This document shows positions 16,557 to 52,434 of a stretch of DNA of 64,000 nucleotides, in pieces; within the stretch, counting starts at the first letter, position 1, and every line of letters starts with the position of its first letter. Source of the DNA: an uncultured Mycoplasmatota bacterium. GTDB taxonomy: Bacteria; Bacillota_I; Bacilli_A; RF39; UBA660. The DNA is taken from assembly GCA_947302655.1 (NCBI GenBank), contig CAMYVW010000002.1, forward strand, positions 1 to 64,000. Reading direction: 5' to 3'. The notes beneath the pieces were generated by a model, which was not told the DNA's origin, made no database searches, and saw only the letters and a program-made list of their open reading frames with translations. Both the position numbers and the translations under genes were made by a program.

Positions 16557-19500
16557 ATGATAAAGTTAATTGATGGTAATAAAGCTTGCGCTCATGTAGC
16601 TCAACTTTTTAGTGAAGTATGTGCAATATATCCAATAACACCTTCTTCACCAATTGCTGCAGAAGTTTCTAAACTTGCTGATGAAGGTAAAGAAAATATA
16701 TTTGGTGGTAAAACAAAAGTAGTTGAAATGCAATCTGAAGCGGGAGCTGCAGGTGCACTTCATGGAGCGTTAATAACTGGGTCGCTTGCATCAACATTTA
16801 CTTCTTCTCAAGGGTTACTTTTAATGATTCCCAATATGTATAAAATAGCAGGAGAAATGCTTCCTGGTGTTATACATACAGCTGCGAGAAGTTTATCAAC
16901 TCATGCTTTATCTATTTTTGGTGATCATCAAGATGTTTATGCAACAAGAGCAACAGGTTTTTGTATTTTAGCATCTAGTAATGTAGAAGAAGCAGGTAAT
17001 CTTGCTGTAGTTGCTCATTTAAGTGCACTTGAAGGAAGTTTGCCATTTTTACATTTTTATGATGGTTTTAGAACAAGTCATGAGATTAATACAGTTAAAC
17101 TTTTAAGTGATGATGATATTAAAAACTTAGTTGATTTAAATTTAGTTAATAAATATAAAGATAGAATAATAAATGTTGGAAATAATATTCAAAGTGGTCT
17201 TGCTCAAAATGAAGATATTTATTTTCAAACAACTGAAGCAAGAAACATAGCTTATAATAAAATGATTGATATTGTTATAAACAATATGAATAAAGTAAAT
17301 GATATTTTGGGAACTAATTATAAACCATTTGAGTTTTATGGAAGCCCTAAAGCTAGTGATGTTATAGTTGTTATGGGTAGTGCTAGTGATACTACAAAAT
17401 TAGTTGTAGATAATTTAAATAAAAATGGTTATGACGTTGGTATGGTAAGTGTTCATCTTTATAGACCATTTAGTAAAGAATGTTTAAAGAAAGTTTTACC
17501 TGATACAGTAAAAAGAATAGCTGTTCTTGATAGAACTAAAGAAGCTGGAAGTTATGGTGAACCACTTTATTTAGATGTTCTAGCTGCACTTAATGATACT
17601 AATATTAAAGTTGTTGGTGGAAGGTATGGCCTTTCTAGTAAAGAAGTAGATCCATCAGATATTAAAAGTGTCTTCACAATGCTTATGGGTCACATGAGAC
17701 ACAACTTTACTATAGGTATTCATGATGATGTTACTAAACTTTCTTTAGTAAGAGAAACATTTAATATTGATTTAGGTGTTGATGAAATTAAGATCTTTGG
17801 ATATGGATCAGATGGAATGGTTTCAGCATCTAAAGAGATTTTAAGTATTCTATCCGAAAAGCTTGGTAAAAGTGCACAAGGATATTTTGAATATGATTCA
17901 AGAAAAAGTGGAGGAGTAACTGTATCTCATTTAAGGGTCGGAAAAAAAGAAATTAAAGCTCCATACTATGTTAAAAATCCTAATTTTATTGTTGTAACTA
18001 AATTAGAGTATTTAAACAAATATAATTGTTTAGATGGAATAAAAAATAGGGGAGTTTTACTTGTAAATACCTCTTTATCTGAAACTGAGTTTGATCAATA
18101 TATAAAATCTGAAGTTAAAACAGAAATCTTTACTAAAAATATTATGGTATATTTAGTTGATGCCGATAAAATTGCAAACGAATATAATTTAAGAGGAAAA
18201 ATTAGTAAAATTATGGAAGTAATTATTCTTCGCGTACTTGGTGTAAATGACTCTACTAAGATTGTTGGAGACTATATCAAAAAAGCATTTAAAACTAAGG
18301 GTGAAGAAGTTATTAATAATAATTTAAAAGCTATTGAACAAGCTTTATATAAAATTAATGTATATAGTTCTCACTCTCAAGGTGATGAGTCAACAAGTGA
18401 GGAATTAGATATTTTTGAAAAGATTAATCAAAGATTAGGTGATACCTTAAAGGTAAGTGATTTACTACCTTATAATAATGGAATAATGCCTAATAACCTT
18501 GCTATCAAAGATAAAAAGGTTACAAGTGAATTTGTTCCTGTTTGGAATAAAGAATCATGTATTGGATGTGCAAACTGTAGTTTAGTATGTCCTCATGGAG
18601 CTATCAGAGTTATTTTAAATAAAGAAGAAGGTATCGAGTATAAAAAAGATAAAGAATATAAATTTAAAATAAGTATTAATAAGGATATTTGTACAGGATG
18701 TATGGAATGTATTAAATCATGTCCTATACCTGATGATAAAAAGCCACTCAAGTTAGTTCCTTATAATGAAGCGCCTAAAGCTAGTGAAGAGTTCTTTGAT
18801 CATATTAATCCTGAATCATCAACTGATGATATTGTTGGTTCACAGTTAAAGAAATCATGCTTTATTAATCCGGGTGCATGTGCTGGTTGTGGTGAAACAC
18901 CTTATATTAAATTATTAACACAATTATTTGGTGAAAGACTAGTAATTGCAAATGCAACAGGTTGTTCAAGTATATATGGTGGTAGTGCTCCAAGAACTCC
19001 ATATAGTATTCCATGGGCTTCGAGTCTATTTGAAGATAATGCTGAGTTTGGTTTTGGAATGCTACTATCTTATAATCAAAAAAGAGAACATTTAAAAAAT
19101 GCTATAGATAAATATTATGACAGTGTAGATTCTAATACTAAATCTATTTTAAAAAGATTAAAAGATAATTTTGATAGTTTTGAAGAAACTATCAAAATTA
19201 AAGAAGAACTTGAAGATACAATTCTTCCAGATGAACTATCAAATTTAGTTTCTTACATACCATCTAGAAGTGTTTGGACTATTGGTGGAGACGGATGGGC
19301 TTATGATATTGGATTTGGCGGAATAGATCATGTTTTATCATCTAATGCTAAAGCCAGAATATTAGTTCTTGACACAGAGGTATATTCTAATACTGGTGGA
19401 CAGATGAGTAAATCTAGTCAATTAGGTCAAGTTGCGGAGTTTGCGAATTTTGGCAAAAATAATAGTAAGAAGGATCTATTTAGAATTGCTATGAGTTATC

Positions 19501-19904
19501 CTAATTGTTATGTTGCATCCATTTCTTTAGGAGCTAATCCTATTCAAACAATTAAAGCATTTAAAGAAGCTGAAAATAATGATGGCCCATCTATTATTAT
19601 TGCATACTCTCCATGTATAGAGCATGGAATAAAATCTGGATGTTCTAATAAAGAAGAAAAACTAGTTGTTGAATCTGGTTATACATTACTTATGAGATAT
19701 AAACCTGATGAAGATAAATTATATTTAGATTCTAGAGAACCTAAATATGAAAAGCTAGAAGAATTCTGGAATAATGAAACTAGATTTAACGCTCTTAAGA
19801 TTAAAGATGAAAAATTAGCTACTGAGCTATTAAATAATCAAAAAGAAGCTATTATTAAAAGATATAATTATTATAAAGAAATAAGTTCTAAGCAAGATGC
19901 TTAG
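16557..19904 (+). CDS. nifJ: Pyruvate:ferredoxin (flavodoxin) oxidoreductase
   Basis: 1115 aa, a little shorter than the usual ~1170-1190. A single-chain PFOR: N-terminal pyruvate-binding domain (ICPITPS type: IYPITPSSPIA), gamma domain, then a 2x[4Fe-4S] ferredoxin domain with CIGCANCSLVCP and CTGCMECIKSCP (about residues 669-720), and a C-terminal TPP domain with GDGWAYDIGFGG and DTEVYSNTGGQ. It converts pyruvate and CoA to acetyl-CoA and CO2 with reduced ferredoxin, a hallmark of strictly anaerobic metabolism. Monocistronic between two terminators. Confidence 0.97.
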   Translation: MIKLIDGNKACAHVAQLFSEVCAIYPITPSSPIAAEVSKLADEGKENIFGGKTKVVEMQSEAGAAGALHGALITGSLASTFTSSQGLLLMIPNMYKIAGEMLPGVIHTAARSLSTHALSIFGDHQDVYATRATGFCILASSNVEEAGNLAVVAHLSALEGSLPFLHFYDGFRTSHEINTVKLLSDDDIKNLVDLNLVNKYKDRIINVGNNIQSGLAQNEDIYFQTTEARNIAYNKMIDIVINNMNKVNDILGTNYKPFEFYGSPKASDVIVVMGSASDTTKLVVDNLNKNGYDVGMVSVHLYRPFSKECLKKVLPDTVKRIAVLDRTKEAGSYGEPLYLDVLAALNDTNIKVVGGRYGLSSKEVDPSDIKSVFTMLMGHMRHNFTIGIHDDVTKLSLVRETFNIDLGVDEIKIFGYGSDGMVSASKEILSILSEKLGKSAQGYFEYDSRKSGGVTVSHLRVGKKEIKAPYYVKNPNFIVVTKLEYLNKYNCLDGIKNRGVLLVNTSLSETEFDQYIKSEVKTEIFTKNIMVYLVDADKIANEYNLRGKISKIMEVIILRVLGVNDSTKIVGDYIKKAFKTKGEEVINNNLKAIEQALYKINVYSSHSQGDESTSEELDIFEKINQRLGDTLKVSDLLPYNNGIMPNNLAIKDKKVTSEFVPVWNKESCIGCANCSLVCPHGAIRVILNKEEGIEYKKDKEYKFKISINKDICTGCMECIKSCPIPDDKKPLKLVPYNEAPKASEEFFDHINPESSTDDIVGSQLKKSCFINPGACAGCGETPYIKLLTQLFGERLVIANATGCSSIYGGSAPRTPYSIPWASSLFEDNAEFGFGMLLSYNQKREHLKNAIDKYYDSVDSNTKSILKRLKDNFDSFEETIKIKEELEDTILPDELSNLVSYIPSRSVWTIGGDGWAYDIGFGGIDHVLSSNAKARILVLDTEVYSNTGGQMSKSSQLGQVAEFANFGKNNSKKDLFRIAMSYPNCYVASISLGANPIQTIKAFKEAENNDGPSIIIAYSPCIEHGIKSGCSNKEEKLVVESGYTLLMRYKPDEDKLYLDSREPKYEKLEEFWNNETRFNALKIKDEKLATELLNNQKEAIIKRYNYYKEISSKQDA

Positions 19905-19918
19905 AACTTATTTTTATT
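19881..19918. terminator. Terminator spanning the nifJ stop codon
   Basis: A 13-bp stem, ATAAGTTCTAAGC/GCTTAGAACTTAT, with a T-rich tail. Lies between nifJ and the convergent regulator and could serve both. Confidence 0.85.
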
Positions 19919-20534
19919 TAGATAACTTTATAATAAAGTTATATTCTCCAATGTTGTATTCACATAATTTTGCGTAGTCTTCTTCATTAACTACAAAAGA
20001 TATACTTCCATAACCATAATCAAATACTTTTACATTTGCTGCAATTGGTTTAGCTGAATTGTTAAAGTATTCCTCGCTTTCAATATATATATCTACATAT
20101 TTTCCTTCATAATATTTAAGCGTTTCATAGTCTCTATTTGATATTCGATAATCAGTTGTTGACCATATAGTATAGTTTTCTGGTATTTCTTTAACTATAA
20201 CTTTTGTTATTGTATGGTTTTTATGATATTTATAGCCTAAAAATAGTGAAGATATAAAAATAATTATTAATAATATAATTATAATAGTTAATTTTTTGTG
20301 AGATTTAATCTTTTTATCTATATCTTTAACAACTTTTTTATCCGATTTTAATAAGTCATCAAGTGAAATATTAAATATGTTACTAATTAATATTAGCGTT
20401 TCAATATCTGGATAGAATTTTCTGTTTTCCCAGTTAGATACTGTTTGTCTTGATACATATAGTTTTTCCGCTAGTTCATCTTGAGTTAAGTTATTATCTT
20501 TTCTTAATTTAATTAATTTATCTTTTAGATTCAT
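19914..20534 (-). CDS. Membrane-anchored XRE-family transcriptional regulator
   Basis: 206 aa. N-terminal helix-turn-helix (residues 1-58: NLTQDELAEKLYVSRQTVSNWE), a basic linker, one membrane helix (about 78-97) and a short extracytoplasmic beta-type domain. This layout suggests a DNA-binding protein that senses an extracellular or membrane signal. It is followed on the upstream side by a 687-bp gap that contains small-RNA-like units. Target unknown. Confidence 0.82.
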   Translation of the reverse strand: MNLKDKLIKLRKDNNLTQDELAEKLYVSRQTVSNWENRKFYPDIETLILISNIFNISLDDLLKSDKKVVKDIDKKIKSHKKLTIIIILLIIIFISSLFLGYKYHKNHTITKVIVKEIPENYTIWSTTDYRISNRDYETLKYYEGKYVDIYIESEEYFNNSAKPIAANVKVFDYGYGSISFVVNEEDYAKLCEYNIGEYNFIIKLSK

Positions 20535-20624
20535 ATATACTTCTTCCTTTCATATATTTAAAGTATATATGTATATTATAAATATTTCTATCAAAGTTAT
20601 TTTACATTTATATTTTTAAACAAA

Positions 20625-20717
20625 AAAATAGGAGCTGCCCCCTGAGACAGCTCCAAAGAATAAAAAGGGGTTGACTAGTGTGATACTAGTACCAATTCGC
20701 CTTTAAGTGAATTGGTG
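20625..20717 (-). ncRNA. Candidate small RNA (three hairpins), minus strand
   Basis: A consensus promoter on the minus strand (TTGACA at 20752-20747, 17 nt, TAGGAT at 20729-20724) is followed by about 90 nt of hairpins. They are ACCAATTC/GAATTGGT, then ACTAGT/ACTAGT around GTATCAC-type loops, a single-stranded AACCCC, and a terminator stem GGAGCTG/CAGCTCC with a T-rich tail. No ORF with a ribosome site fits inside. I do not recognise the family. It lies 90 nt upstream of, and co-oriented with, the regulator gene but is ended by its own terminator. Confidence 0.6.
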
Positions 20718-20723
20718 ATACCT

Positions 20724-20752
20724 ATCCTAATCGAAAAGTACTATTTTGTCAA
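20724..20752 (-). promoter_or_regulatory. Promoter of minus-strand small RNA
   Basis: TTGACA, 17-nt spacer, TAGGAT on the minus strand, immediately before the hairpin-rich unit. Confidence 0.65.
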
Positions 20753-20819
20753 GCATTTTTTATTATTTTTTTAATATTTATTTTCGACAAAATATTTCAT
20801 AATATTTCTATTATTTAAA

Positions 20820-20848
20820 TTGACAAAGAGAGTAAAAAATTATAAACT
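20820..20848 (+). promoter_or_regulatory. Promoter of plus-strand small RNA
   Basis: TTGACA at 20820-20825, 17 nt, TAAACT at 20843-20848. It faces away from the minus-strand small-RNA promoter, leaving about 70 bp between the two -35 boxes. Confidence 0.5.
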
Positions 20849-20854
20849 TATTAT

Positions 20855-20955
20855 AGCATGATACTATCATGCTAGACCCATCTACGATTTATTGTAGTTA
20901 GGTCAAACCAAAACCCCCTGAATGACCACCTTTTGGTGGTCTTTGTTTTTTGTTT
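20855..20955 (+). ncRNA. Candidate small RNA with C-rich seed, plus strand
   Basis: About 100 nt: a palindromic 5' hairpin GCATGATA/TATCATGC, a two-step hairpin GACC-CTAC/GTAG-GGTC, then an unpaired stretch AAAACCCCCTGAATG, ending in a terminator GACCACC/GGTGGTC plus T run. The rest of the 20535-21221 gap holds nothing else I can support. The C-rich single strand just before the terminator is the type of seed used by Bacillota sRNAs to pair with ribosome sites. This function is inference only. Confidence 0.5.
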
Positions 20956-21221
20956 TTATTTATGGTGGCTTCGTTATTTTAAGCTTTATTAAAAATGTGT
21001 CTAAGTAATGATATACTTTTTTTCTGATTATATTTAAGAATATTTCACAATACTTAAAAGAAAAGAGCTTAATTGTGATTCCTGATACTAAAATAGATCA
21101 ATATAAAAAACTATTAATAAATCTTTGCTAAAGTGATGAAAAAGAAGAAATCTATACTTTTATTAAACAGCATTGCTAATTAATCATAGTTATAGTAAAC
21201 TTTAAATATCGGTGATTAAAT

Positions 21222-21863
21222 ATGAATGATAATTTTGAAATTCGAAATGAGATTCTAAGAGATATGCTTAATAACAATAATGACATAAAAAGGGAAAGAA
21301 AAAGAAAATTATTAAAGATATTTTTATCATTAATTTGTATACTTGGTTTTCGTTTGTTTGTAGGAAAGATTTTAATTCCAAATGTTTTTGGATTTCCTTC
21401 TGGGTATAATAGATACTTCCTAATCGAATTTAATAATAAACCCTTAAGCATAGAATATAAAATAACAAATGAATTACCAATTATACCTTTTATAGTTTAT
21501 CTAAAAAGTTCGACTGAAAGTATGAGCAAATTATCACCTGAAAACGTGGAAAATTTTTATTATACTGTTGAACAAGACATAAAAATGAATATTAAATCAT
21601 TTGAATGCTATAACAATAAGTCTCGAATTAGATGTGAATACTATGATAAAACAAATTTGAAAGAAAAAAAATTACGTCTTTCAACCATGAAAATAACTCA
21701 TACTTCAAATCCTTATAAACTAGTCTATGAGGGAGAGTATAACTCCAATATAGGAAAATATTTAAAATATAATGGCAGTTTCACGATTAATATTACAGGT
21801 AAATATGGATTGAATACTGTCCATTTAACAACTTATATTATCAAGAAGAGTTCTGGTAAATGA
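21222..21863 (+). CDS. Hypothetical membrane protein
   Basis: 213 aa with a GGTGAT ribosome site. A charged cytoplasmic N-terminus (about 1-28) is followed by one membrane helix (29-46) and a soluble outer domain with Cys residues near 127 and 134. Not recognised. It is bracketed by two copies of a C-rich terminator segment (20918 and 22040), as if it were a cassette between repeated ends. Confidence 0.65.
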   Translation: MNDNFEIRNEILRDMLNNNNDIKRERKRKLLKIFLSLICILGFRLFVGKILIPNVFGFPSGYNRYFLIEFNNKPLSIEYKITNELPIIPFIVYLKSSTESMSKLSPENVENFYYTVEQDIKMNIKSFECYNNKSRIRCEYYDKTNLKEKKLRLSTMKITHTSNPYKLVYEGEYNSNIGKYLKYNGSFTINITGKYGLNTVHLTTYIIKKSSGK

Positions 21864-22175
21864 AAAATTTGACCTGTTCTTCTTTTTAATTTTATTTAAT
21901 TTAAAAATTATTTTAGGTTCTATTTAGGTGCTAAAAACATTAAAATACATTAAAAAGTTATAATGACTTAAAATATAGAAAGTAAGTAAGTAAAAGGTTT
22001 TAACCAATATTAAATAGCAAAAAGTCTAGTTTTAAGTGACCCCCTGAATGACCACCTTTTTAGGTGGTCTTTTTTGTTTTTACTAGTTTAATAATATGCT
22101 TTACATAATTTATTATGAAGTTGTGGTTTAAACTGAATTATTATTATATAATTAAGCAAAGGAGTACAATTAAAT
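21864..22175. other. 312-bp gap without a gene
   Basis: AT-rich. It contains a TATAAT near 21958, several short TAAG repeats near 21985, and near its middle a C-rich segment plus terminator (22036-22072) that repeats the 3' end of the small RNA at 20855-20955. I see no ORF with a ribosome site. Confidence 0.5.
22036..22075 (+). terminator. Terminator with repeated C-rich lead-in
   Basis: GACCACC/GGTGGTC stem with a long T run, preceded by CCCCCTGAAT exactly as at 20918. Probably ends the transcript of the 21222 gene or a small RNA starting near 21970. Confidence 0.75.
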
Positions 22176-22879: not shown

Positions 22880-22906
22880 TAGACCACCTTCTAGGTGGCC
22901 TTTTTT
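22880..22906 (+). terminator. Terminator after the 22176 gene
   Basis: CCACCTT/AGGTGG stem with a T run, directly before a consensus promoter. Confidence 0.75.
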
Positions 22907-22913
22907 GTTTTAT

Positions 22914-22942
22914 TTGACATAATTTATATATTAGATTATAAT
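22914..22942 (+). promoter_or_regulatory. Consensus sigma-A promoter
   Basis: Perfect TTGACA, 17-nt spacer and perfect TATAAT, 41 nt before the start at 22983. Among the best promoters in the window. Confidence 0.85.
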
Positions 22943-51559: not shown

Positions 51560-52288
51560 ATGAATTCTGAACAAATAATATATATAAATCTTGATGATTC
51601 TGGAAAACTTACTTCAAAAGAAAAAGTATCTTGTTATGGTGGAATAGTGTTCTTGTCAAAAGATGAAAGAGCAAAATTTATTGTTCAATATAGATCGATA
51701 ATTGAACAAATTAGATGTTCATATTGTAAGCACTCAAAAAGATGTAAAAATTTATGCCCTGAAGTAAAGAATCATAATATTAAATCATCACATAAAAGAA
51801 GACTTATAAATCTTACAAAAAAACATATGACTATAGGCTTTGTTATAGATAATAAGAGAATATATAAACATATATTAAATGATAAAGCCTCTAGAGGAAG
51901 ATATTCTGATTATTGTTTAAAATTACTTATTAAAACTTTTGTAAAAAAACTTATAATTAATAAAAGAATAGATCCTTATAAGCCTTTAAAATTAATTATA
52001 GATATAGATCAGCAAACTACAAAAAGTAATGGTTACTATGATTTAAAAAATGGAATATATGAAGAACTAAAACATGGAATATCCAATTTTAATTATGCTA
52101 GAACTTTTAAACCATTACTTTATTCTGATTTGATGATAACTTTAATGTATAAGGATTCTTCCAAGAATTATCTTATTCAAGCATCTGATTTACTTGCAGG
52201 AACTGTTAGAGGTATTGCTTTAAATAACTATCCTAGATATGATGCTTCAAATTATAAAGACTTTAATTTAATAGTATTTTTCCCATAA
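51560..52288 (+). CDS. DUF3800 family protein
   Basis: 242 aa from ATG 51560 (GGAGGTGAC 6 nt upstream). Begins with the DUF3800 signature INLDDSG and CYGGIVF, has a middle LIIDIDQQT strand and a C-terminal QASDLLAGTVRG. These acidic residues form an RNase-H-like active site in the family. A four-Cys cluster (CSYCKHSKRCKNLC, about residues 53-66) may bind zinc. DUF3800 genes are found in accessory islands, with some retrons, and beside several conserved RNA motifs. A structured RNA unit lies convergently just downstream. Confidence 0.85.
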   Translation: MNSEQIIYINLDDSGKLTSKEKVSCYGGIVFLSKDERAKFIVQYRSIIEQIRCSYCKHSKRCKNLCPEVKNHNIKSSHKRRLINLTKKHMTIGFVIDNKRIYKHILNDKASRGRYSDYCLKLLIKTFVKKLIINKRIDPYKPLKLIIDIDQQTTKSNGYYDLKNGIYEELKHGISNFNYARTFKPLLYSDLMITLMYKDSSKNYLIQASDLLAGTVRGIALNNYPRYDASNYKDFNLIVFFP

Positions 52289-52400
52289 GAAAAGAGCTTC
52301 ATAAGAAGCTCTTATCCCAGTTGGGTCGATGTACTTACAGTACACTTAACAATTATGTCGAGTCCCTACTGTCGACCTGACGAGATTTTCATCTCCGGTA
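52288..52400 (-). ncRNA. DUF3800-linked structured RNA (candidate), minus strand
   Basis: About 110 nt transcribed toward the DUF3800 gene from a clear promoter. In RNA order: GGAGAT/ATCTC hairpin; a multi-branch unit closed by GGTCGA/TCGACC, enclosing TGTACT/AGTACA; an ACTGGG strand; and a terminator stem AAGAGCTTCT/AGAAGCTCTT-type with TTTTCTT. No ORF. Published comparative searches describe several RNA motifs next to DUF3800 genes; membership of one of them is inference. Confidence 0.65.
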
Positions 52401-52405
52401 CTAAA

Positions 52406-52434
52406 ATACTAACAAACAAAATATTGCTTGTCAA
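52406..52434 (-). promoter_or_regulatory. Promoter of the DUF3800-linked RNA
   Basis: Minus strand: perfect TTGACA (52434-52429), 17-nt spacer, TAGTAT (52411-52406). Confidence 0.75.

Follow-up and report, generated by a model that had tools for sequence, protein, structure and literature searches.

Two undescribed small-RNA families in uncultured gut bacteria: a predicted silencer of pilus genes and a putative integration site for mobile elements

In Streptococcus sanguinis, the small RNA (sRNA) csRNA1-1 represses pilT, the mRNA of a type IV pilus ATPase (PMC8186281). In Staphylococcus and Bacillus, RsaE/RoxS sets an unpaired C-rich motif against ribosome-binding sites and is matched by a sponge, RosA, that bears a complementary G-rich stretch, and RsaI is regulator and sponge at once (PMC8216469). 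Genomic islands insert themselves in RNA genes and rebuild the genes that they enter (PMC4383910), and sRNA genes are known as prophage integration sites (PMC5502288). How does the locus described here, with its two units A and B, compare with these systems? Like the CiaR-dependent csRNA1-1 (PMC8186281), A is an sRNA of ~90 nt that pairs, in its case by prediction, with a type IV pilus ATPase mRNA, and tandem copies occur (for A, in the relative L053); as in the csRNAs generally, an unpaired linker between hairpin(s) and terminator is matched to a ribosome-binding site, again by prediction for A. Unlike csRNA1-1, A has pilB, cpaF, and prepilins as its predicted targets, no sequence relationship between the two was found, and the CiaR repeat TTTAAG-N5-TTTAAG was present in 0 of 150 distinct regions upstream of A. 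A and B share with RoxS and RosA the unpaired C-rich motif directed at ribosome-binding sites and the complementary G-rich stretch on a second RNA, and A would be regulator and sponge in one, as RsaI is (PMC8216469). However, the predicted targets of A lie in the pilus and not in central metabolism; the Rfam RsaE covariance model gave no match at its gathering score or at E ≤ 5, and no Rex operator (TTGTGA-N4/8-TCACAA) was found in the 150 upstream regions. B resembles the islands and prophages found in tRNA, tmRNA, and sRNA genes (PMC4383910, PMC5502288) in that a tyrosine integrase adjoins the site, the element restores the 3' end of the gene, and the displaced copy lies at the far end, whereas the site is a new sRNA family and the exchanged piece is only the terminator after a 9-bp core. 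A is neither a csRNA nor RsaE, and A and B are new families of a known kind.

We consider it probable that A is a trans-acting sRNA that silences pilus genes, that B is an sRNA whose 3' end serves as an integration site, and that the two came to lie head to head through loss of recG. A would be transcribed from a strong sigma-A promoter, with two 5' hairpins and a terminator flanking its exposed C-rich linker CAACCCCUUUUUAUUCUUU. This linker would pair with the ribosome-binding sites of pilus-biogenesis mRNAs, chiefly that of pilB, the type IV pilus ATPase, with further partners in a Tad-type operon with cpaF and in the first codons of prepilins, and the pairing would block translation of these mRNAs. 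B would be a second trans-acting sRNA whose C-rich linker is likewise exposed. Recombination by tyrosine integrases would take place at CCCCCTGAA inside B, and incoming elements would bring a new terminator, so that B would stay intact while its 3' end is exchanged. The loss of recG, which separates A and B elsewhere, would then have left the two units facing away from each other.

The window analysed here is a stretch of 64,000 nt from contig C2 of a 1.04-Mb draft genome (G000), which was represented by sampled stretches. Both units lie in the gap between a gene for an XRE regulator and an ORF of the opposite strand, with the following features:

16557–19904, forward strand: pyruvate:ferredoxin oxidoreductase gene, by our reading of its sequence
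19914–20534, reverse strand: membrane-anchored XRE regulator with an HTH_3 domain, not a conserved partner
20624–20718, reverse strand: putative sRNA A, ~95 nt, from folding; the covariance-model match spans 20620–20721
20631–20654, reverse strand: A intrinsic terminator and T-run, stem variable among species, apical UCAGGGGG conserved
20638–20645, reverse strand: octamer TCAGGGGG in the loop of the A terminator, the exact reverse complement of the B sequence CCCCCTGA
20655–20673, reverse strand: A linker CAACCCCTTTTTATTCTTT, unpaired and near-invariant; it is the proposed anti-Shine-Dalgarno seed against the mRNAs of pilB, cpaF, and prepilins
20674–20690, reverse strand: A stem 2 with invariant loop (ACTAGTATCACACTAGT), from folding and alignment
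20691–20716, reverse strand: A stem 1 (ACCAATTC...GAATTGGT), 7 pairs, from folding and alignment
20724–20752, reverse strand: A promoter TTGACA-17-TAGGAT, -35 at 20752–20747 and -10 at 20729–20724
20820–20848, forward strand: B promoter TTGACA-17-TAAACT, -35 at 20820–20825 and -10 at 20843–20848
20853–20952, forward strand: putative sRNA B, ~100 nt, from folding, covariance model, and covariation
20855–20873 and 20875–20904, forward strand: B hairpins, from RNA folding
20905–20923, forward strand: B linker AAACCAAAACCCCCTGAAT, unpaired, including the 9-bp core CCCCCTGAA
20924–20941, forward strand: B terminator, from terminator call and folding
21222–21863, forward strand: ORFan of 213 aa without a Pfam match, between two att-like copies, probable cargo or remnant

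An initial annotation had read the gap as two divergent promoters about 70 bp apart, each leading into an ORF-free, hairpin-rich unit with a terminator, and this picture was borne out. Both promoters are of the sigma-A type, with -35 boxes 67 bp apart; the units measure ~95–100 nt and end in intrinsic terminators, the locus holding three terminator-like sites vs. 0.4 in shuffled sequences; and no ORF of at least 40 aa was found within 20535–21175. A folds at -32.1 kcal/mol (z-score -5.0) and B at -34.0 kcal/mol (z-score -7.1), with 0 of 200 shuffles as stable in either case. A promoter of the form TTGAC[AT]-16/18-TAnnnT precedes A in 149 of the 150 distinct upstream regions, with a 17-nt spacer in 145 of them. 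The annotation had also proposed a comparison with Rfam and a covariance analysis in related genomes. Neither unit reached the gathering score of any family in Rfam 15, and a search at E ≤ 5 led to no accepted family, the best subthreshold matches being ncr1241 for A (20.5 of 60 bits) and Hrs13 for B (25.9 of 52 bits). A and B are, on this sequence evidence, two undescribed sRNA families, whose transcription we infer from promoter, terminator, and covariation.

How widespread are the two units? A covariance model of A matches 172 of the 193 genomes of the host's family (139 of 148 genera) and none of 173 sampled genomes from other families of the class; a blastn-type DNA search of 60 relatives likewise recovered A from almost every genome of that family. 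In a pattern scan, the A core AGTATCACACTAGYCRACCCCTTTTTATTC had exact matches in at least 118 contig stretches, and the matches listed come from uncultured Bacilli, Tenericutes/Mollicutes, Erysipelotrichaceae, Bacillales, and similar MAGs, many of them of gut or rumen origin, labels that suggest GTDB order RF39. Two genomes (G181 and G128) carry two strong copies of A each, and two tandem copies lie 155 nt apart in L053 (5000–5350). The model of B, built from seven sequences, matches 140 of the 193 family genomes (115 of 148 genera) and a single genome of another family. This outlying B-type sRNA (59.6 bits, G339:C5:1304–1404) sits near a contig start and may reflect horizontal transfer or a binning error. 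Confinement of B to the genus was considered and rejected, as blastn mostly missed B and the covariance model found it family-wide. The uncultured gut bacteria of this large family, whose genomes are of ~1 Mb, would thereby gain two undescribed, nearly universal sRNA genes, which make the gene regulation and gene flow of unculturable organisms directly testable.

Both families bear the marks of conserved RNA structure. In an alignment of 60 A sequences, the two stems carry some compensatory changes (in stem 1, two-sided changes of U-A to A-U and of C-G to U-A), one loop is invariant, and the linker is nearly so. The terminator stem is free to vary, with 49 different 5' arms among 113 sequences, and its apical UCAGGGGG is kept in 113 of 149 distinct A sequences. 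In the model-fitted alignment of B, 97.7% of pair cells hold standard pairs and two-sided changes occur at 17 of 21 pairs, with 230 double-sided changes vs. 58.5 in shuffles; the covariation score is 0.54, compared with 0.15 in shuffles and at most 0.09 with slid partners. The B linker, approximately AACC(A/G)AA(A)CCCCCTGA, is nearly invariant.

Do A and B act on each other? The octamer in the A loop UCAGGGGG is an exact complement of the B core, and the two RNAs may pair. It is possible, and we put it forward tentatively, that they form an sRNA–sponge pair in which the A loop captures the B linker CCCCCUGA in mutual titration, as RosA does with RoxS; this is compatible with the explanation preferred above, as an addition to it. 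The persistence of the 8-nt complement in those 113 A sequences while the surrounding stem varies speaks for such a pair, as do the YUNR-type motif YUCA, with which 109 of 117 A loops begin, and the energy of the isolated duplex of A loop and B linker (-16.7 kcal/mol vs. -9.6 kcal/mol with A's own linker). However, cofolding of full-length A and B predicts no contact and leaves the terminator closed, because its upper stem would have to open, and the octamer in B that complements the A loop is also the DNA att core. In addition, at least 10 genomes lack the A loop while B retains CCCCCTGA. Since losses of the loop are not mirrored by loss of CCCCCTGA in B, coevolution of the two was not found, which leaves the sponge a tentative proposal.

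Which mRNAs might A regulate? The unpaired linker between its hairpins and terminator is predicted to pair with ribosome-binding sites, and we take CAACCCCUUUUUAUUCUUU to resemble the anti-Shine-Dalgarno motifs of RsaE/RoxS and the csRNAs. Translational repression is the usual outcome when an sRNA pairs over a ribosome-binding site. Of the 15 other GAATAAAAAGGGGTT sites (at most 2 mismatches) in the window's genome, 7 are prepilin starts with the codons N-K-K-G-F. When 503 start regions were ranked by energy, prepilins and a single Tad-type operon came out close to the top; Pfam returned T2SSE, DUF5411, and N_methyl among the top-ranked candidates. The pilus set was picked after viewing this ranking, which is therefore exploratory, and so the pilus targets were tested in other genera, the pilB and cpaF runs serving as independent tests. 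There, pilB starts ranked 7/147, 2/96, 1/74, 1/65, and 1/61. Across 27 further genera, the median duplex energy at pilB was -15.4 vs. -7.6 in a background of 937 other genes (P = 2e-14), and at cpaF in 28 further genera it was -12.6 vs. -7.6 (P = 3e-7), P values in which species are not independent draws; shuffled linkers did as well in 0 of 200 cases for either gene, and 74% of pilB starts lay beyond the background's best 5%. The typical pilB site AAAAAGGGGTTGA lies right before the start codon and is a perfect complement of UCAACCCCUUUUU. The upstream extension GAATAAAA, where the site reaches past the Shine-Dalgarno sequence, precedes 7 of 110 pilus genes vs. 1 of 937 others. Within the genome of the window itself, pilB comes only 55th and cpaF 22nd of 563, with one prepilin in first place and two genes of the Tad operon in the top six. 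A has the look of a silencer that masks the ribosome-binding sites of pilus genes, and it offers a testable pilus regulon with sequence-only support in dozens of genera. Three near-identical tandem prepilin-like genes of ~675 aa (L184:8003–14337; G000:C1, ~257–263 kb) carry the same A site at each start, with N_methyl confirmed for the first. A prediction of mRNA targets for B gave top-ranked genes that share no function.

Could A instead be a general C-rich regulator of metabolism like RsaE/RoxS, its pilus matches mirroring no more than the G-richness of ribosome-binding sites and the KKGF codons with which prepilins begin? We judge this unlikely, although its linker CCCCUUU is like that of RsaE/RoxS, A usually lies beside the gene for pyruvate:ferredoxin oxidoreductase, and high ranks in the window's genome also go to unrelated genes. 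Composition does account for part of the Tad signal, as the reversed linker reaches P = 3e-5 and extension-shuffled linkers attain the observed P value in 5 of 60 cases. However, a generic anti-Shine-Dalgarno tail, that of 16S rRNA, shows no preference for pilB or cpaF sites (P = 0.24 and 0.26, respectively), and the reversed linker, the B linker, and the RsaE motif all show a far weaker preference for these sites than the A linker does. The pilB and cpaF sites, moreover, recur in 27 and 28 genera.

In the preferred explanation, B doubles as a point of entry for mobile DNA. What marks its 3' end as such a site? The relevant features of the window are as follows:

20914–20941, forward strand: B 3' end (CCCCCTGAA and terminator), putative attachment site in relatives, from tyrosine integrases and direct repeats
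22039–22081, forward strand: second copy of the B 3' end, an att-like direct repeat 1126 bp downstream
22882–22915, forward strand: third, partial copy, terminator half only, from a repeat search

Tyrosine integrase genes (PF00589) with Phage_integrase, SAM-like, and Arm domains lie 95–190 bp after the 3' end of B in 15 genomes, convergent with B, and the element examined there encodes a Mob_Pre relaxase and an AAA_25 ATPase. Copies of CCCCCTGAA plus terminator recur downstream of B on the same strand, with direct repeats of CCCCCTGAA spanning 2.2 kb in L068, 8.4 kb in L246, 10.9 kb in L242, and 13.3 kb in L235. The 3' tails after CCCCCTGAA are identical among species with different B bodies, one tail being found in nine loci; because the swapped piece is just the terminator after the 9-bp core, B genes bear many different 3' ends. 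Many contigs stop 0–140 nt past B. From these observations we infer that the 3' end of B is an attachment site at which tyrosine-integrase mobilizable elements would recombine. B would be a chromosomal entry point for a large set of such elements in the host's family. In the window itself, ORFans lie between the att-like copies and no integrase was found next to them; the copies would be a decayed or cargo-only remnant of integration. The terminator of A was considered as a second att site and rejected, as no integrase was found there. In L098 (4069–4143 and 5034–5128), a second, truncated B-like copy made of part of the upstream stem and the 3' end lies ~960 nt downstream of B. Look-alikes of AbiEi/AbiEii, a DUF1016 nuclease, and Fic, identified by eye from sequence, lie between B-type att copies in L249 (627–1996) and L241 (415–2455), on the reverse strand of the locus; B is probably a defence-gene hotspot.

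A family-wide regulatory pair, in which A silences pili and carries a decoy loop for B and the linker with which B binds its targets doubles as the recombination core through which mobile elements enter, seems to us quite unlikely. If it were true, the arrival of an element might change B and the way it pairs with A and, through this, DNA uptake or contact linked to pili.

The preferred explanation also holds that recG was lost between the units. Other genera show the arrangement POR → ← A / recG → B →, in which the divergent units A and B typically stand 2.1–2.4 kb apart (recG and POR, pyruvate:ferredoxin oxidoreductase, are names that we assigned by reading the proteins); in many relatives, a gene of the POR family lies downstream of A and converges on it. 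A recG model run over five genomes of the window's genus gave no match above the cut-off, with a partial match to ORFs of ~1055 aa (probably Mfd) and a weak one to ORFs of ~665 aa (probably UvrB). A and B lie head to head in four of the five genus members, and in the fifth (G004) they are ~6 kb apart. As recG is absent from the window's genus, the head-to-head arrangement is therefore derived, a deletion scar from its loss. The initial annotation had singled out a divergent sRNA pair beside a membrane-anchored XRE regulator: the two divergent, undescribed sRNA genes stand, and the regulator is present, but the pair beside it is not the feature itself, as A and B elsewhere in the family flank recG ~2.3 kb apart. 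The regulator is not a conserved neighbour of the units, and its presence here is incidental. That the units are leaders or attenuators of adjoining genes and not free sRNAs, as might be suggested by the window, where A precedes the XRE gene on a shared strand and B precedes ORF 21222, is highly improbable and was rejected because the neighbours differ between genomes, the downstream neighbour of A often being convergent, and strong terminators end both units. Elsewhere in the window, positions 52281–52406 on the reverse strand match the DUF3800-I RNA (Rfam RF02969) above its gathering score.
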